This document shows positions 5,212 through 44,450 of a DNA stretch of 64,000 nt, piece after piece. Under the pieces are notes generated by a model, which was not told where the DNA came from, made no database searches, and saw nothing but the letters and a program-made list of their open reading frames with translations. The translations under genes and the position numbers were made by a program. The first letter of the stretch is position 1, and each line of letters begins with the position of its first letter. Source of the stretch: Clostridiales bacterium 1_7_47FAA (lineage in GTDB: Bacteria; Bacillota; Clostridia; Lachnospirales; Lachnospiraceae); assembly GCA_000155435.1 (NCBI GenBank), contig DS990260.1, positions 1 to 64,000 on the forward strand, given 5' to 3'.

Positions 5212-6147
5212 ATGGCAGATCATATACTTAAGCCTTCCCGTAAGAACCTCCATGGAAGCCTGTCCAAATCCATTCCACCAGTCCTGACCATTACTCCAGG
5301 TGAAACGGTGGATTTTACTACCCTGGAGGCAGACTGGCGGATTGCACGGCCTGACTCCCCCTTATCCTCAAGCGGCGTTTTCATGGAACGTTCCTTTCCC
5401 GCCGACCAGGGGCATGCACTGTGCGGCCCGGTCTATATCCAAGGCGCACGCCCCGGAATGACCCTTGCCGTACGGATTAACCAGATCATCCCGGGAACAT
5501 GGGGCTGGAGCCGTGTTGGAGGCGGGGACCCTGACCACCTGTCCCGCATAGGGTTTGAGGGGGATGAATATTTCCTTATCTGGGACATTGACCGGCAGAA
5601 AGGAATCTGCCGCAGCCATATGGGGCACTGCGTCCCCCTGTCACCATTCATGGGTGTAATGGCGGTGGCCCCTGATTCAGATGATTATGTGAAGACCCAT
5701 GCCCCCGGCCCTTATGGTGCTAATATGGACTGCCGGGACATCACAGCCGGAAGTATCCTTTATCTGCCTATTTATACGCAGGGAGCCCTTTTCTCCACCG
5801 GCGACGGACATGCCAGACAGGGGGACGGTGAGTCCGGATGCACTGCAATCGAGTGCCCGATGGAGCAGGTAAGCATGACTTTTAATCTGATTGATGAGCC
5901 ATTAGACAGTCCTGTATGTAATTCCCCGAAAGGCTGGATTACCTTTGGCTTTCACAGTGATTTGACAGTTGCTGCTTATTATGCTTTAATGGATATGTGC
6001 AGATTGATGGAACGCCTGTATGGATTTGGACACAAGGAGGCCATGGCCATGGCAAGTGTGGCCGTTGATATGAAAATAACACAGCTGGTCAACGGTATAA
6101 GGGGAGTCCATGCCCTTCTTCCCCACGGCGTCATCTCCACAATGTAA
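5212..6147 (+). CDS. Acetamidase/formamidase family protein
   Basis: This 311-residue soluble enzyme of the FmdA/AmdA family releases ammonia from formamide, acetamide or related short amides. Visible family features are an N-terminal beta-rich region, the GDGHARQGDGE metal/active-site motif at about residues 201-211 and a C-terminal GFGHKEAMAMASVAVDMKIT helix. The ribosome binding site is AAAGGAGG. It lies between the cyclase-family hydrolase and the regulator, consistent with a short pathway that ends in ammonia release. Confidence 0.9.
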   Translation: MADHILKPSRKNLHGSLSKSIPPVLTITPGETVDFTTLEADWRIARPDSPLSSSGVFMERSFPADQGHALCGPVYIQGARPGMTLAVRINQIIPGTWGWSRVGGGDPDHLSRIGFEGDEYFLIWDIDRQKGICRSHMGHCVPLSPFMGVMAVAPDSDDYVKTHAPGPYGANMDCRDITAGSILYLPIYTQGALFSTGDGHARQGDGESGCTAIECPMEQVSMTFNLIDEPLDSPVCNSPKGWITFGFHSDLTVAAYYALMDMCRLMERLYGFGHKEAMAMASVAVDMKITQLVNGIRGVHALLPHGVISTM

Positions 6148-16698: not shown

Positions 16699-16737
16699 AA
16701 AAAAGGCACCGGATAACCTGCAAGGTAATCCAATGCC
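16699..16737 (-). terminator. Terminator of the decarboxylase operon
   Basis: On the minus strand a 15-position stem (16705-16719 with 16723-16737; one mismatch, two G-T pairs) closes on a 3-base loop and is followed by TTTTTT. Its upstream arm is made from the first copy of the 13-bp tandem repeat. Confidence 0.85.
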
Positions 16738-16873
16738 TCATTCCAATGTCTTATTACAATGTCTTATTACAATGCCTTATTGCAATGCCTTATTACAATG
16801 CCTTATTGCAATGCCTTACTGCAATGCCTTATTGCAATGCCTTATTACAATGCCTTACTGCAATGCCTCATTC
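16731..16873. repeat. 13-bp tandem repeat array, 11 units
   Basis: Eleven contiguous 13-base units of the form CAATGCCTTATTR occupy 16731-16873, plus a partial CAAT. There are five variants; the first and last units are identical (CAATGCCTCATTC). The array lies between the gamma-subunit stop and the terminator, so it is expected to be transcribed as 3' untranslated RNA. Confidence 0.92.
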
Positions 16874-16947
16874 CAATAATCCGGCCCCCCAGAAGTCTTA
16901 TATGAGCAATCATGAAACACACCCTGGCGCCGCCCGGTACCTATCGG

Positions 16948-18290: not shown

Positions 18291-19637
18291 CTATATTTCC
18301 TCAGCCGCTTCCTCTTTTTTTGTCTCCTTTAAGGTCATTTTCACATAGCTGATGACCCTTTCGTCCATGCCTTCCACCTCATAGTCCGCCTCAGCTGTCA
18401 CAACCGTGATGGGAAGTTCCGTCTGGCCAGGTATGTAGCCCAGCTGTTCCATAAGATAACCGGATAAGGTATCGCAGGAACTATCCATATGCAGATGCAT
18501 CTCTTCCTTTAAATCAAACAGGGAAATGCTGCCGGATACCCGGTAAACCCGGTGTGGCTCCAGTTCCAGGATTTCAGGCTCCACCTCTTCATATTCCTCA
18601 TGGATGTCACCCACTATCTCCTCAATCAGGTCCTCCAGTGTCACCATACCGGCCACGCCGCCGTATTCGTCAATGAGGATGGCAAGCTTTGTTTTATTCT
18701 TCTGCATTTCCCTAAACAGGGCGTCCGTCCTTCTGTTTTCCGGCACAAAGTAGGGGGCCATGAGAAGGGAATGGATATCCAGGCCCTCAAAGGACCTTTT
18801 CCTTGCCTCGATGGTCAGGGCCTTGATGGACAATACACCGATGATATTGTCAATATCCCCTTCATATACAGGGATTTTTGAATGCATGGACTGGAGGATC
18901 CCATCAATATAATCCTCCAGAGGCTCATTAATGTCAATGGCCACAATATCCTGTCTGGGGACCATGACTTCCTTTGCCCGCTTATCATCAAAGGAGAATA
19001 TGGATGTAATCATCTCCTTCTCAATATCATTGAACACACCTGTCTCACTGCCGGTTTCCAGCATAGACTTGATTTCCTCTTCCGACACATCTGTCTCAAG
19101 GTTCTCATTATGCATGCCAATCAGCTTTAAGAAGCCACTGGTGGACAGTGACAGCAGTTTTATGAACGGGTTCATGATGCGGGAGATATAGTATATGGGA
19201 CGTACACAGAAAAGGCTGAATCCCTGCGCCTTCTGAAGGGCAATACGCTTTGGCACCAGTTCACCGAACACCAGGTTAAAATATGCCAGTATCAGCGTGA
19301 CCACCACGCCTGCCAGTGTCTGGCTGTATGGCATATTCCACTCTGCCATCTTCACCGCCAATACCTGGGCGATGCCGGTTGCCGCAGATGCACTGGAGAA
19401 AAATCCTGCCAGCGTGATGGCTACCTGGATGGTGGACAGAAAGACAGTGGAGTCTTCCATAAGCCGCTCTATGAGCGCCGCGTTTTTGTTGCCCTGCTCT
19501 GCAAGACGGCGGATCCTGTTCTTGTTGACAGACACAACTGCCATCTCTGAGCCTGCAAAGAATGCATTGATAAGTGTTAAGATAATTAAGATTGTGATTT
19601 GGAATATAATATTGGCCGCTTCCGGGTCAGATTCCAT
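18291..19637 (-). CDS. CNNM/CorC-type membrane protein with CBS domains (hemolysin family)
   Basis: The 448-residue protein has a DUF21/CNNM membrane domain (residues 8-200, four hydrophobic segments, GELVPKRIALQKA after the third), a CBS pair (residues 215-345, VMVPRQDIVAIDI and LIDEYGGVAGMVTLEDLIEE) and a C-terminal CorC_HlyC domain. Homologues are implicated in magnesium or other cation export and resistance. It starts after CGGAGG, behind a near-consensus promoter. It is followed by the sodium-pump decarboxylase genes, which suggests joint control of cation balance. Confidence 0.94.
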   Translation of the reverse strand: MESDPEAANIIFQITILIILTLINAFFAGSEMAVVSVNKNRIRRLAEQGNKNAALIERLMEDSTVFLSTIQVAITLAGFFSSASAATGIAQVLAVKMAEWNMPYSQTLAGVVVTLILAYFNLVFGELVPKRIALQKAQGFSLFCVRPIYYISRIMNPFIKLLSLSTSGFLKLIGMHNENLETDVSEEEIKSMLETGSETGVFNDIEKEMITSIFSFDDKRAKEVMVPRQDIVAIDINEPLEDYIDGILQSMHSKIPVYEGDIDNIIGVLSIKALTIEARKRSFEGLDIHSLLMAPYFVPENRRTDALFREMQKNKTKLAILIDEYGGVAGMVTLEDLIEEIVGDIHEEYEEVEPEILELEPHRVYRVSGSISLFDLKEEMHLHMDSSCDTLSGYLMEQLGYIPGQTELPITVVTAEADYEVEGMDERVISYVKMTLKETKKEEAAEEI

Positions 19638-19745: not shown

Positions 19746-19763
19746 GGGTGGGGTGGGTGGGGG
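19746..19763 (+). other. G-quadruplex motif with single-T loops
   Basis: GGGTGGGGTGGGTGGGGG has four G runs of at least three separated by single T residues, the pattern that forms very stable parallel quadruplexes. It lies about 30 bases upstream of the -35 of the CNNM operon promoter, on the template strand for that operon, and 9 bases before the first long palindrome. Confidence 0.85.
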
Positions 19764-19772
19764 ATTCCGTCC

Positions 19773-20006
19773 GTGAGTGGAATGGGGATGGGAGGGATGG
19801 ACGCGGGCTGCGGGGCTAGCAGCTCTAAGCCTTCGGGAACCGGCGCTGGACAAGAGGCCGGCGCCCAAACTCGCGCTCTGGCTTTTCCAATGATTTTGAT
19901 ATCGGGCTCAGACAAAGGACGCCGGCCTCTTAGCACCGCTTCCCGAAGACTAAGACCTGCACGCCCCTGTAGATGCATCCATCCCTCCCATCCCCATTCC
20001 ACTCAC
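19773..20006. repeat. Long imperfect palindrome 1
   Basis: A perfect 29-bp inverted repeat (19773-19801 with 19978-20006) continues inward with about 60 more imperfectly paired positions, including near-perfect blocks at CTTCGGGAA (19831-19839) and AAGAGGCCGGCG (19852-19863) against TTCCCGAAG and CGCCGGCCTCTT. Only about 15-40 bases are unpaired at the centre. Single-stranded DNA or RNA from here would fold into one hairpin with a roughly 95-bp stem. The outer arms are G-rich on the plus (left) strand. Confidence 0.85.
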
Positions 20007-20094
20007 CCACTACGTTTTCCCAATTGCTCCACCTCATGAATCTGGATAGCGGGATAGGGTCGCATGCTGAAGTAATCCCCTCTCCCGTTCATAA

Positions 20095-20238
20095 ATCCTA
20101 TCTTAAAGATATATCCTATTCTAAATATATATCTTATTCTAAAGATATATCCTATCCTAAATATACATTCTATCCTAAGTATACATCCTATCTTAAATAT
20201 GCATCCTATCTTGAATATGCATCCTCTCCTGATTATAT
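20095..20238. repeat. 18-bp tandem repeat array, 8 units
   Basis: Eight contiguous diverged units of the form ATCCTATCYTAAATATRY fill 20095-20238. The unit is a multiple of three and would encode SYLKDI-like hexapeptides on the plus strand, but no start signal serves it. It lies between the two long palindromes and is AT-rich in contrast to them. Confidence 0.9.
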
Positions 20239-20269
20239 CCCGCGCGCTTTTATCTACTCCTCCGTGTTT

Positions 20270-20602
20270 TGTGTATGCAGCGGTTGGAATGCACAGCCCG
20301 CGAAGCGGGCCAGGGCCGGGCGGACGGGGGCGGGTTGGAGGCATAGTGGAGGAGGTCGCAGCTTCTTAGGTCCTGGCGGATTAAAAGACGGGGGTGGATT
20401 CTTGCATCAAAGCAAGAATCCAAGGTGCTCTGAACGTAGAAAGTCCTTCAGGATTTCTACGTGAATAGCACCGGTCCCCCGTCTTTTAATCCGTCAGGGC
20501 CTTAGAAGCTGCCCCTCCGGAACTTGGCCTCCACCCCGCCCCCGGCCGCCCGGCCCTGGACCGCTTTGGGGGCGTAGCCTTCACACACCCCCACATACAT
20601 AC
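20270..20602. repeat. Long branched palindrome 2
   Basis: Two arms of about 120 bases pair with each other (20270-20395 with 20474-20602). The best blocks are GGATTAAAAGACGGGGG (20378-20394), GCAGCTTCT (20359-20367) and the G/C-rich CCAGGGCCGGGCGG (20310-20323) against their complements. The centre holds two further hairpins: a perfect 10-bp stem with 6-base loop (20396-20421) and a two-part stem (20424-20429 with 20467-20472; 20434-20442 with 20454-20462). The predicted shape is a three-way junction. It starts six bases after the end of the ABC exporter gene. Confidence 0.88.
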
Positions 20603-20608
20603 CCAAAA

Positions 20609-22387
20609 TCACCCCCGCGCAAACTGACTGTTGTAGATCTCCGCATAGAATCCCCCCCGCTCCAGAAGCTCCTCATGCCGGCCTTTTTCTACAATGTGTC
20701 CATCACGCATGACCAGGATTACATCGGCTTCCCGGATGGTGGACAGGCGGTGGGCAACGATGAAGCTGGTGCGGCCTTCCATCATCCTGGCGAATGCTTT
20801 CTGTACACGGATTTCCGTCCTTGTATCAATGGAGGAGGTGGCTTCGTCCAGTATTAACATGGGCGGCAGGCACAGCATGACCCTGGCTATGCAGAGCAGC
20901 TGCTTCTGGCCCTGAGACAGGTTTCCTCCGTCCTCACTGATGACCGTGTCATATCCTTCGGGCATCCGCATGATGAAACCATGGGCATGGGCTTCCTTGG
21001 CTGCGCGGATGATTTCTTCTTCCGGCGCATTTGGACGGCCGTAGGCAATGTTCTCACGGATGGTCCCTGTTTTGAGCCATGTTTCCTGCAGGACCATTCC
21101 GTAGTTGGTTCTCAGGCTTTTTCTGGTTATGTCGCGTATGTCCATGTCTTCCACCTTGATGGAACCGCTGTCCACATCGTAAAAACGCATAAGAAGGTTG
21201 ATGATGGTGGTTTTCCCACAGCCGGTCGGACCCACGATTGCCACCCTCTGGCCGGGTTTTACATCCAGGTCGAAGTTTTCAATAAGCTTGCGGTCCGGTG
21301 TGTAAGAGAAATTTACATTGGTAAGTTGTACTTTACCGTCTACGTGGGCAAGTTCTGCGGCATCCGGTTTATCGTCCAGGATGGCTTTTTCATCAATCAG
21401 CTCGAATACACGGGCAGCGGAGGCCAGGGCGTTCTGCAGCTCTGTCACCACGCCGGAGATTTCGTTGAAGGGTTTGGTATACTGGTTGGCGTAGCTTAGG
21501 AAACTGGTCAGCTGGCCCACGGTCATGAAGCCGCGGATGACGGCGTACGCGCCGGTAATGCCCACCGCCGCGTACACCATGCTGTTGACAAACCTGGTGC
21601 TTGGATTGGTGATGGACGAGAAGAATGTGGCCCTCAGGCTGTAACCTGCCAGACGGTTATTGATTTCCTCAAACTGTTTCTGGGTTTCCTCCTGGTATCC
21701 AAATGCCTGCACCACCTTCATATTGCCCAGCATCTCATCGGTCAGCGCTGTCAGCTCCCCTCTTGTCTCGGACTGGTGGCGGAACATGATGAATGTTTTT
21801 TTAGCGATGAAGCTGGCAACGAAAAGGGAGACAGGGGTCAGCACCACTACCACAAGTGTGATGGCGGGATGGATGGACAGCATGAAAAGCAGGGTTCCCG
21901 CAATGGTCAGGACACCGGTAAACAGCTGGGTAAAGCCCATGAGCAGTCCTTCTGAGAACTGGTCAATGTCCGCTATGATCCGGCTGATGATGTCGCCGGA
22001 CGGGTGGGCGTCAATATAACTTAAGGGCAGTGTCTCCAGATGGTTGAATGCCCTGGTGCGGATATCCTTTACCACCCGGTAGGTGATGGTGTTGTTGATG
22101 TGGTTCATCAGCCACTGGGAGATTGCTGTCAGTCCCACTGCGCCCAGGATCTTCCACAGTATCCGGGTCAGTCCGGCAAAGTCCACATTTCCCTGTCCCA
22201 CAATATGGTCCACCGCACGGCCCGTAAGTATGGGGACGTACAGTGTAAGGGCCACCGTGATGAGGGCCAGGATCAGGGACATGATGACCCCCCATCTGTA
22301 CTGGCCTATATAGTTCAGGATACGTTTCAGGGTTTCCATGCTCTTGTTTTTGTCTGAATCCTTATGTTTATTCTGTTTACTGCTCAT
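20609..22387 (-). CDS. ABC exporter half-transporter (catalytic-site subunit)
   Basis: The 592-residue type IV ABC exporter has an N-terminal six-helix membrane domain (residues about 25-310), then a nucleotide-binding domain with GPTGCGKTT, the signature LSQGQKQLLCIARVM, Walker B LILDEATSSID and switch His in IVAHRLST. Start set at the ATG after GGAGGAGGTGG; it overlaps the upstream gene by 11 bases, showing translational coupling. It pairs with the product of that gene to make a heterodimeric multidrug or peptide exporter. The signature LSQGQ deviates from LSGGQ, as in the subunit opposite the degenerate site. Confidence 0.95.
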   Translation of the reverse strand: MSSKQNKHKDSDKNKSMETLKRILNYIGQYRWGVIMSLILALITVALTLYVPILTGRAVDHIVGQGNVDFAGLTRILWKILGAVGLTAISQWLMNHINNTITYRVVKDIRTRAFNHLETLPLSYIDAHPSGDIISRIIADIDQFSEGLLMGFTQLFTGVLTIAGTLLFMLSIHPAITLVVVVLTPVSLFVASFIAKKTFIMFRHQSETRGELTALTDEMLGNMKVVQAFGYQEETQKQFEEINNRLAGYSLRATFFSSITNPSTRFVNSMVYAAVGITGAYAVIRGFMTVGQLTSFLSYANQYTKPFNEISGVVTELQNALASAARVFELIDEKAILDDKPDAAELAHVDGKVQLTNVNFSYTPDRKLIENFDLDVKPGQRVAIVGPTGCGKTTIINLLMRFYDVDSGSIKVEDMDIRDITRKSLRTNYGMVLQETWLKTGTIRENIAYGRPNAPEEEIIRAAKEAHAHGFIMRMPEGYDTVISEDGGNLSQGQKQLLCIARVMLCLPPMLILDEATSSIDTRTEIRVQKAFARMMEGRTSFIVAHRLSTIREADVILVMRDGHIVEKGRHEELLERGGFYAEIYNSQFARG

Positions 22388-24182
22388 CACGTTCCACCTC
22401 CTCCCGGGATAACTGTGACAGGCAGATTTCCCTGTACACATCACATGAGTTAAGCAGCTCCCTGTGCGTTCCCATGCCTGCCAGCGTTCCCTCGTCCAGC
22501 ACAAGGATCAGGTCCGCCTGCTTAATGGTGGTCGCCCTCTGGGATACAATGAACACGGTCATGTCCTCCGTACCTTTACGGATTGCCTTTCTCAGCCTTG
22601 CATCCGTGGCAAAATCCAGGGCGGAGGCGCTGTCGTCCATAATAAGGATTTCCGGCCTGCGCACCAGGGCCCTTGCAATGGTAAGCCGCTGGCGCTGTCC
22701 TCCGGACAGGTTCCGCCCTCCCTGATCAATGTGCAGCATAAGCCCCTGGCCTTTGTCATTCACGAATTCCCTGGCCTGGGCCATGTTAAGGGCATCATAT
22801 ATCTCTTCATCGGACGCGTCTTTCTTCCCCCACTTCATGTTGTCCCGCAAGGTTCCCTTAAAGAGGACCGGGCGCTGGGGAACCACGCCGATTTTGGAGC
22901 GCAGGCCGTCCAGTGTATAATCCCTTACATCCACGCCGCCCACCAGCACCTGCCCTTTGTCTGCATCGTAAAAACGCGGGATTAGATTTACCAGCGTGGT
23001 CTTTCCGGAACCAGTGCCCCCAATCACACCGATGGTCTGTCCCGGCATGGCCTTAAAGGAAATGCCGCTTAAGGCCGGCGCCTTGGCCCCGCTGTATATA
23101 AAATCCATATCCCTGAACTCAACCTTGGGCGCCGGGTCTTTGGCAGTTGGGCTGATGGGTGACAGGGATTCAACGGGACCTTCACTTCCACGGCTTCCCT
23201 CTCCGCGGCCTTCACATCTCCCTCCGCCTTCCTTCACGCTGGTCTCTACCTGGAAAATGCTGTCCACCCTGTTCATACAGGCGGTTGCCTTGGATATGAG
23301 GATGATCAGGTTCGCCATCTTGATTAATTCCACCAGTATCTGGGACATGTAGTTTACAAGGGCAATCACCTTGCCCTGGGTAAGGATCCCGCTGTCCACC
23401 TGCTCTCCTCCCACCCAGATGACGGCCACGATGGCCACATTGATGATTACATAGGTGACGGGATTCAGGAGGGCGGATATCTTGCCCACAAAGACCTGCA
23501 TCCTGACCAGACGGTCATTTTCCCCTTCAAACTTCTCAGTCTCGCTTTTCTGGCGGTTAAAGGCCCGGATGACCCTGACTCCCATCAGGTTCTCCCTGGT
23601 GGTCAGAAGCACCTTATCCAGCTGTCTCTGGACCGACCGGTAAAGGGGCATGCTGACCAGCATGATGCCGAATACCACCACGCAGAGCACCGGTATGGTC
23701 ACCACGAATACCATGGCGGAGCGAAGGTCCACCGTAAATGCCATGATCATGGCGCCAAACACCACGAACGGGGAACGCAGCAACAGGCGCAACGTCATGT
23801 TTATACCGTTCTGCACCTGGTTGATATCACTGGTCATGCGTGTAATCAAGGTGGCCGTGCCCACGGAATCTATCTCCGCATAGGACAGGGTCCCGATGTG
23901 CTTATACAGGTCATTCCTGAGGGCGGTCCCCGCGCCCGTTGCCGCCTTGGCCGCAAAGTACTGGGCGGTCAGCGAACAGGCCAGGCCCACAAGGGCCAGC
24001 AGCAGAAGCAGGCCGCCCATTTTCAGGATATAGCCCCCATCCCGGTTCCTGATTCCCACATCCACCATGCTGGCAACCACAAGGGGTACGAACAGCTCAA
24101 AACTGGCCTCCAGCATTTTAAACAGGGGACCAAGGATGCTTTCCTTCCTGTAGTCCGTCATGTAGCTTAACAATCGTTTCAT
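22377..24182 (-). CDS. ABC exporter half-transporter (degenerate-site subunit)
   Basis: This 601-residue exporter half has a six-helix membrane domain followed by GGTGSGKTT, LSGGQRQRLTIARAL and Walker B ILIMDDSASALD. The catalytic Glu is replaced by Asp and the switch His is replaced (VSQRATT), the usual mark of the non-hydrolysing site in heterodimers such as BmrCD or TM287/288. A Gly/Ser/Glu-rich insertion of about 35 residues joins membrane and ATPase domains (near residues 315-350), longer than normal. First gene of the pair, divergent from a LysR regulator. Confidence 0.95.
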   Translation of the reverse strand: MKRLLSYMTDYRKESILGPLFKMLEASFELFVPLVVASMVDVGIRNRDGGYILKMGGLLLLLALVGLACSLTAQYFAAKAATGAGTALRNDLYKHIGTLSYAEIDSVGTATLITRMTSDINQVQNGINMTLRLLLRSPFVVFGAMIMAFTVDLRSAMVFVVTIPVLCVVVFGIMLVSMPLYRSVQRQLDKVLLTTRENLMGVRVIRAFNRQKSETEKFEGENDRLVRMQVFVGKISALLNPVTYVIINVAIVAVIWVGGEQVDSGILTQGKVIALVNYMSQILVELIKMANLIILISKATACMNRVDSIFQVETSVKEGGGRCEGRGEGSRGSEGPVESLSPISPTAKDPAPKVEFRDMDFIYSGAKAPALSGISFKAMPGQTIGVIGGTGSGKTTLVNLIPRFYDADKGQVLVGGVDVRDYTLDGLRSKIGVVPQRPVLFKGTLRDNMKWGKKDASDEEIYDALNMAQAREFVNDKGQGLMLHIDQGGRNLSGGQRQRLTIARALVRRPEILIMDDSASALDFATDARLRKAIRKGTEDMTVFIVSQRATTIKQADLILVLDEGTLAGMGTHRELLNSCDVYREICLSQLSREEVERDEQ

Positions 24183-40649: not shown

Positions 40650-40695
40650 TGCAAATCCCTCCCTCATGATCCGTGATTTTTGTGATACCCGTATC

Positions 40696-40773
40696 ATATC
40701 AGACAAATCTCTAAAAAACCTTAAAAAATGGAAGAATTTCTTTTAGGATTTTTAGAGATTTGTCTGATATAAT
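40696..40773. promoter_or_regulatory. Divergent promoter region with 30-bp inverted repeat
   Basis: Near-perfect arms (40696-40726 and 40741-40770) flank a 14-base centre. Each arm ends in a -10-like hexamer facing outward: TATAAT (40768-40773) for the two-component genes and TATGAT (rc of 40694-40699) for the importer operon. Neither has a recognisable -35; instead each arm holds near-direct repeats (TTTTAGGATTT, TTAGAGATTT), as expected for promoters activated by an OmpR/PhoB-type regulator. Confidence 0.75.
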
Positions 40774-43724: not shown

Positions 43725-43835
43725 TCCTGCTTTTCTCTCCTTCCCCCTGTATTGTGGTCCTTGTCATGGCTTCCGTCAATTATAGACATGGTGCGATATC
43801 CTGTCTTCATTATTCTTGCCCTATTTTTATTTTTT

Positions 43836-43931
43836 CTGATTCATTTTAGCTCTGATTCATTCTTACTCTGATTCATCCTTGCCCTGATTCATCCTTGCCC
43901 TGATTCATCCTTGCCCTGATTCATTCTTATT
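43836..43931. repeat. 16-bp tandem repeat array, 6 units
   Basis: Six contiguous 16-base units begin at 43836, 43852, 43868, 43884, 43900 and 43916, form CTGATTCATCCTTGCC; the three central units are identical. The array runs into the 3' end of the permease gene, whose stop (43905-43907) lies in the fifth unit. Confidence 0.9.
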
Positions 43932-44450
43932 CTTCCTATATATATGTCCCATCTCCTGTTCCGGCAACAGCCCTTCAATGGAATACGCAATCACAAATAC
44001 GACTGCCAGGTTAAGTATAAAACGGCTTGCTGCAAACCACAATCCCAGGGAAGAGATTTCAAAAAGCAGAAGCGGTACACGGATACTAACACTGGAACAC
44101 AGGAAAATAAGTACATTGGAAATGCGCCCGCCCTTCTTCAACAGCAGTCCTGTAATGGGAAGCAGCGCATAGACAGGCACTGCTGTAAGCATTCCCATAA
44201 AAAGTGACAGGAATGCGCCGGACACACCGGACCGGTTCCCCATCATCCCCATCATTTCATCCTTTTCCACCCATACGTCCATCAGCCCCACGCAGAGGAA
44301 CACAGGAGCCAGGTTCCATACGAACTGCGCGAGTCCTGCGCCCGTATAGGAAATGACGCCGTACCACATACCAGGCAGAAATACCAGGACCAGAAAAAGA
44401 ACCAGCAGACAGACCAGGATTGTCATGATCCATGCCCCTGACTTCTTCAT
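43905..44450 (-). CDS. UPF0718-like permease, half B
   Basis: This 181-residue membrane protein has about four spans. The segments SGAFLSLFMGMLTAVPVYALLP and LLKKGGRISNVLIFLCS resemble the second half of UPF0718/ArsP-type permeases. Its start overlaps the stop of half A by four bases (ATGA). Its last residues KNESGQG are encoded by a 16-bp tandem array. The substrate is unknown; family members export organoarsenicals or are uncharacterised. Confidence 0.7.
   Translation of the reverse strand: MKKSGAWIMTILVCLLVLFLVLVFLPGMWYGVISYTGAGLAQFVWNLAPVFLCVGLMDVWVEKDEMMGMMGNRSGVSGAFLSLFMGMLTAVPVYALLPITGLLLKKGGRISNVLIFLCSSVSIRVPLLLFEISSLGLWFAASRFILNLAVVFVIAYSIEGLLPEQEMGHIYRKNKNESGQG

Follow-up and report, generated by a model that had tools for sequence, protein, structure and literature searches.

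Large branched palindromes in head-to-head doublets form a dispersed family, and a candidate mobile element, in Lachnospiraceae

The large palindrome next to an ABC transporter gene in Clostridiales bacterium 1_7_47FAA is one copy of a dispersed family, and it constitutes the right half (B module) of a double element in which a second palindrome (A module) faces the opposite way across a spacer. Its centre is a branched core that keeps its fold and length while its letters change. We lean towards reading the family as a non-autonomous dispersed mobile element, the unit of which consists of two large branched palindromes placed head to head with a spacer between them. The window, i.e., the whole stretch of DNA analysed, comprises the first 64,000 nucleotides of contig DS990260.1 (assembly GCA_000155435.1); its features are listed in Table 1, and loci (L) and genomes (G) are given our own numbers where they have to be told apart. 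Both the membership in a dispersed family and the second palindrome at 19766–20015 had escaped a preceding sequence-only reading. Since the palindrome belongs to a dispersed family and makes up one side of a doublet, its link to the ABC exporter is incidental, and a single RNA gene tied to this exporter is ruled out, as the copies adjoin many different genes.

The right palindrome contains an outer inverted repeat of 86 nt (20270–20355 and 20514–20599, 74% complementary) and an inner one of 37 nt (20358–20394 and 20476–20512, 92% complementary), inside which the two hairpins sit, and these repeats top the 13 inverted repeats found across the whole window. Its plus strand has a folding energy of −249 kcal/mol, shuffles averaging −131.9 (s.d. 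5.48; z = −21.4), and its minus strand one of −236.8 (z = −20.7), and none of 100 shuffles folded as well on either strand; the left palindrome reaches z = −12.5 on the plus strand. The comparison with shuffles, the ranking of the inverted repeats and the covariation described below rule out chance or artefact as the origin of the palindrome. This is in agreement with the sequence-only reading, which had described a branched palindrome with an ordered junction exceeding the needs of a terminator, and the distance of six bases that it gave to the ABC gene is likewise correct, the palindrome adjoining the 3' end of this minus-strand gene six bases from the stop codon at 20609. It had also placed two hairpins at the centre, which are indeed present, however, the perfect stem, that of hairpin 1, is 11 bp rather than 10 bp long. 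Hairpin 2 has an internal loop, opposed GA dinucleotides at 20432–20433 and 20463–20464, and a UUCA loop. Perfectly matched blocks exist as well, and GGATTAAAAGACGGGGG pairs perfectly, but ~80 nt separate its two blocks and not the more than 100 bases reported. Elsewhere the window holds an intergenic 13-bp tandem array of ~10 copies (16726–16877), a 16-bp tandem array of at least 6 copies (43820–43933), and an AT-rich inverted repeat at 40693–40773 with 36-nt arms that lie 9 nt apart and are 89% complementary.

Table 1. Positions of the double element, its parts and the neighbouring genes in the window
Feature	Position	Strand	Basis or remark
Right palindrome (B module)	20270–20602	+	Inverted repeats, fold and family alignment; core strand is window plus
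Left palindrome (A module)	19766–20015	−	Fold more stable when read on minus
Spacer separating the two palindromes	20016–20269	.	Between A and B modules
18-bp tandem array, within spacer	20091–20238	.	
Branched core, 141 nt, CTTAG to CTTAG, model R1	20365–20505	+	Alignment A2, counts, model
T-T mismatch in lower stem, bases 20367 and 20503	20367–20503	+	A2 columns 3/139
Apical hairpin 1	20395–20422	+	A2 columns 31–58
Apical hairpin 2	20424–20472	+	A2 columns 60–108; TGA/GAA pattern in 100/117 cores
ABC transporter gene (neighbour, outside element)	20609–22504	−	Stop codon abuts right palindrome; ABC_membrane and ABC_tran domains
CNNM/CorC_HlyC membrane protein gene (neighbour, outside element)	18291–19637	−	

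The B core measures exactly 141 nt in 11 copies of the own genome (G000) and 139–140 nt in relatives from G011 and G002, the stems of which are quite different; 81 of 82 unique cores fall within 136–144 nt, and that of L020 measures 180 nt. Alignment A2 comprises 17 sequences (11 own, two from G011 and four from G002) and 57 pairs; L018, L021 and L022, which have N gaps, were omitted from the folding counts and from A2, and L020, which has an extra hairpin, from A2. The N runs of the former three fall within their palindromes, where the assembly perhaps failed at the hairpin. Standard pairs fill 96.9% of the cells in A2, two-sided changes occur in 44 of the 57 pairs, and none of 500 shuffles came up to the observed value on any of five measures. 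When partners are slid by 1–3 columns pairing falls to 37–49%, a comparison favoured by the structure having been derived from the same alignment. The sequence-only reading had proposed a search for compensatory arm changes in homologues, and these are what the relatives display; uncompensated changes, named there as half of a refutation, are the opposite of what was found. Unpaired positions are conserved too: T occupies A2 column 3 in all 17 sequences and column 139 in all 16 that have a letter there. Both T of this T-T step are present in 93 of 117 unique cores, the step being absent from every core examined of G101, G134, G169, G052 and G297 (1–2 each), and of the same 117 cores 100 have the TGA/GAA pattern of hairpin 2 and 108 a UUCA-like loop.

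The ordered branched fold thus stands as first described, but a folded RNA is only one possible reading of it, as template switching during replication also restores stems and gives two-sided changes (PMC8794818, in the part available), for which reason covariation alone is no proof of RNA. According to the strongest alternative to a mobile element, the family would be a structured RNA, with the core plus strand transcribed as a small RNA or as part of a 3' UTR, the fold under selection and duplication secondary. The covariation of the core and the conserved unpaired bases speak for this, as do the G-T pairs of the 117 cores, which number 242 on the plus strand versus 141 on the minus strand (copies 67 versus 25). 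By genome, core G-T counts are higher on plus in 16 and not in 8, several genomes showing the opposite tendency, with 29 versus 31 in G268 (20 cores), and A2 contains 42 G-T versus 3 A-C cells, 22 of the 42 at two inherited positions. These counts make a modest case that the core apparently functions in the form of a single strand, window plus, copies within a genome not being independent. On the other hand, G-T pairs amount to only ~3.7% of core pairs, and the outer arms outside the own genome display no strand preference (129 on plus versus 137 on minus); in the own genome they number 59 versus 29. Judged by these counts, the outer arms resemble DNA palindromes whose likeness is maintained by a process at the DNA level. 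An earlier wobble count that included 70-nt flanks, with core and arms not separated, was nearly even outside the own genome (263 versus 218). The RNA reading is further weakened by the ability of template switching to yield the same covariation, by the absence of the element at orthologous sites described below, and by the promoter searches: no conserved upstream promoter was seen, and a scan of the window gave five sites, against 1.0 expected, none of them just upstream of the right palindrome on plus. We consider a structured RNA family rather improbable. In Rfam, the window region gave four matches, all of them to plant microRNA hairpin models below the gathering threshold, and 20 loci of other genomes gave one match, a THF riboswitch (RF01831) outside the core at L107 2138–2256, ~500 nt from a G268 copy.

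Searches of the own genome returned 32 match rows with 20260–20610 and 25 with 19760–20020 as query, and 26 regions, later four more, were fetched. Twenty-five loci of the right-hand type were placed and oriented, although some are weak or interrupted by assembly gaps; the left-hand type is represented by 12 full copies, all 12 more stable on the minus strand. The 15 aligned B copies share the apex where ungapped and have longer arms in some cases; four short sequences (L023–L026) resemble decayed copies, and L013 contains an A copy without its middle. Nine of the 12 A copies are joined by a spacer to a B partner within ~0.8 kb, order and orientation being the same each time; in L020 the B lies at 3.6 kb, and for L039 and L041 none was found. 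Many right-type copies are solitary. The kinship of A and B is based on one weak model match (25.6 bits, L035) and on motifs that the two, by eye, have in common. Spacer sequences differ among the other own-genome pairs. Tandem arrays, with differing unit sequences, also lie in the spacers of the paired palindromes at L036, L219 and L015. Some right-type copies contain a third palindromic repeat, ~155 nt long and with ends resembling GGGYGTGTTTGAAAATT; in the own genome it is whole in L019 (4170–4330) and a remnant in L017, and it is present inside the G002 copy L052, and similar text lies upstream of the G194 copy L266.

A covariance model of the 141-nt core (R1), with short calibration and rough E-values, matches eight of 17 genomes of the genus, G014 and G016 by a single 73-nt match each that is perhaps a plain hairpin, and, in a family-wide sample of 299 genomes, it matches 20, the own included, with G241 represented by a 58-nt match of the same doubtful kind. 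In a class-wide sample of 391, under stricter filters, the own genome alone was matched. Match rows per genome, for 16 genomes with 150 candidates scored each, include 136, 94, 44, 36 and 23, some rows being opposite-strand shadows of one place. Head-to-head doublets are present in nine other genomes, with cores 236–364 nt apart. Copies within G194 and within G101 are far more alike than copies across genomes, and this likeness is, to judge from the sequences, the pattern of repeated local amplification. No plasmid or phage record similar to the right palindrome was matched, and the exact own-genome core pattern, a narrow one, was absent from viral contigs. Two matches of this narrow pattern in genome contigs were read as coding and judged to be chance, in a collection from which records near the own genome are possibly absent.

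The ends of the unit are best seen in G194, where an alignment of nine of the 10 loci reveals units that are near-identical inside and differ in their flanks. Their outer ends are inverted repeats in AT-rich flanks, and one of the six units with both ends found is, by eye, bordered left and right by the same four bases (TATA). In L268 the central part of the left module has been lost, and the left halves of L259 and L264 are unrelated. In the own genome only short similarity of the outer ends was seen by eye. The G194 repeats, together with the one unit flanked by TATA, are what a cut-and-paste MITE would lead one to expect, in which a DDE-type transposase would act on terminal inverted repeats and the giant palindromes would be passive passengers; however, it is the core and not the ends that is conserved best across genera, duplications are not consistent and lone modules are common, and we find this explanation unlikely.

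Relatives retain the two genes between which the window element lies, and none of the nine relatives read has an intact element there: G003 has a truncated A, G005, G011, G004 and G012 hold another gene or its remnant, and in G009, G006, G013 and G016 the gap is short intergenic DNA that contains no element. The G003 counterpart of L017, with 85% identity across the first 934 query bases, is without B and has, by eye, an ordinary two-way terminator instead, and ordinary terminators are likewise seen by eye after the same gene in G009, G005, G004 and G011. At L014, six of seven relatives matching both flanks have 97–121 nt, against ~1160 nt in G000, and from this shorter gap it follows that B and the neighbouring gene are both missing. 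The element is absent at the same gene pairs in related genomes.

Taken together, the data establish a dispersed family with a shared fold that undergoes two-sided changes, with doublets, and with near-identical units in different flanks. In the mobile element that we favour, a protein supplied in trans would recognise the folded core strand as single-stranded nucleic acid by its T-T step, opposed GA pairs and two-hairpin apex, and would move or copy the unit. Lone modules and truncated halves would be decayed or partial units, which the truncated copies support, and template switching in replication would keep the outer arms complementary. Insertion at gene ends would be tolerated and may replace a terminator, L017 being the one clear site. 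Against the mobile reading stand the lack of a consistent target duplication, the three of 12 own A copies without a close B, the many solitary right-type copies, a strand preference of the core that is not universal, and the failure to find an enzyme. A Y1/RAYT transposase as the mover is not supported, for Y1 transposases do not track the family: the element-bearing G002, G163, G169 and G247 have no Y1_Tnp match, and the one full Y1_Tnp copy of the own genome encodes a short IS200-like protein with no listed element copy near it. An own gene between the modules, as expected of an autonomous parent, was sought in L020, L134, L230 and L219, which contain only ordinary genes or tandem arrays there. 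In L134, two cores (2728–2864 and 5333–5470) face apart across 2.5 kb of ordinary genes, and the adjoining genes are ones we take to be rsmG-like and parA/parB-like.

Neighbour genes were assigned on a simple ORF criterion. On this basis, 20 of the 25 own copies have the right foot of B directly at the 3' end of a convergent gene; among the five exceptions, L013 and L019 have an assigned neighbour that overlaps with the palindrome and is questionable. A survey of neighbours, in which lone copies are those with no R1 partner within 1200 nt, kept 56 of 64 plus-sense matches, the eight others, among them the only G194 one, having no neighbour gene on one side. G268 and G229 contribute 42 lone copies, of which 31 have a convergent right neighbour and 31 carry the core on the strand that is locally G-poor; the latter holds for 23 of 25 own copies (exceptions L011 and L139) and for 14 of 14 in G101. 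Coding falls on the leading strand at a fraction of ~0.8, so that gene orientation alone gives about the 31/42 figure, and a lagging-strand mechanism is not claimed, because most of the G-poor-strand bias follows gene orientation. Between convergent genes, nine of nine own cores and 11 of 14 elsewhere are antisense to whichever gene is on the leading strand, which is suggestive only, some own left neighbours being far off or doubtful ORFs. Many cores contain an A-tract, a GC stem and a T-tract, the last of these internal and paired, and in 90 of 117 T exceeds A on the 3' side. That the core is kept as a two-way terminator or 3'-end protector of genes, as its place at convergent gene ends, these tracts and the ordinary-looking terminators (by eye) in five relatives at L017 might suggest, is very unlikely, given that in G194, G042, G130, G052 and G297 the T-tract either runs the other way or is missing and that the outer arms would be superfluous; the absence of terminator-like sites inside 15 own copies decides nothing, the strict detector being of low power (18 of 282 control gene ends found).

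Among known systems, the available portions of the literature describe REPINs/BIMEs as pairs of intergenic palindromes that stand inverted on either side of a spacer and multiply within a genome, with compensatory changes in the stems and with singlets seen as remnants (PMC3116915). The window family shares the inverted doublets, the within-genome amplification and the compensated stems, however, REPINs, as described there, stay well below 100 bp, their stems are short and simple and a RAYT gene belongs to them, whereas the palindromes here are ~250–390 bp long and contain a three-way junction, and the analysis revealed no link to a RAYT. REPs tagged GTAG or CGTC lie downstream of genes, often between convergent genes, and commonly form head-to-head dimers; the CGTC REPs have no known transposase, stems are 5–13 bp and units 20–40 bp, and the phyla named do not include Firmicutes (PMC3733652, in the part available). 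Gene-end position and head-to-head dimers are thus common to both, and the CGTC REPs share the missing transposase, but the modules of ~250–390 nt and the core of 136–144 nt far exceed the REP unit described; CGTAG stands at the right foot in six of 15 own copies, with other spellings in the rest. With MITEs the family has in common the lack of coding capacity, the many copies and, in G194, the terminal inverted repeats, and it differs in that palindromes dominate the unit and no target duplication is consistent. Many cores resemble bidirectional intrinsic terminators in their A-tract, GC stem and T-tract and their position between convergent genes; they are, however, ~10 times longer, branched and dispersed, and lack a terminal T-run. 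Candidate structured RNAs from the human microbiome include palindromic ones detected on both strands, some of which are not terminators (PMC8040213); comparison with these is based on the four examples described in the available text, of 80–132 bp and from Bacteroidetes, out of a table of 250 palindromic candidates. We recognised no published description of the palindrome family in the literature covered, which lies mostly outside subscription journals and excludes that table.

By analogy, then, the family appears to work like REPINs/BIMEs while being about ten times larger and branched, and it is not filed as one of them, since its size differs and no linked RAYT was found. A tentative extension of the mobile reading, in which we place distinctly less trust, is that a strand-specific branched mobile fold of ~140 nt, with near-fixed length and near-free sequence, exists family-wide, would be read by a putative protein, has spread as doublets, in some genomes beyond 100 copies, and may replace terminators. 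If the mobile reading is right, one bacterial family would harbour branched counterparts of REPs on a giant scale. The difference in behaviour between core and outer arms makes the palindrome family a natural test of whether compensatory changes are due to selection acting on RNA or to template switching at the DNA level, and the family warns against taking covariation alone as proof of a functional RNA.
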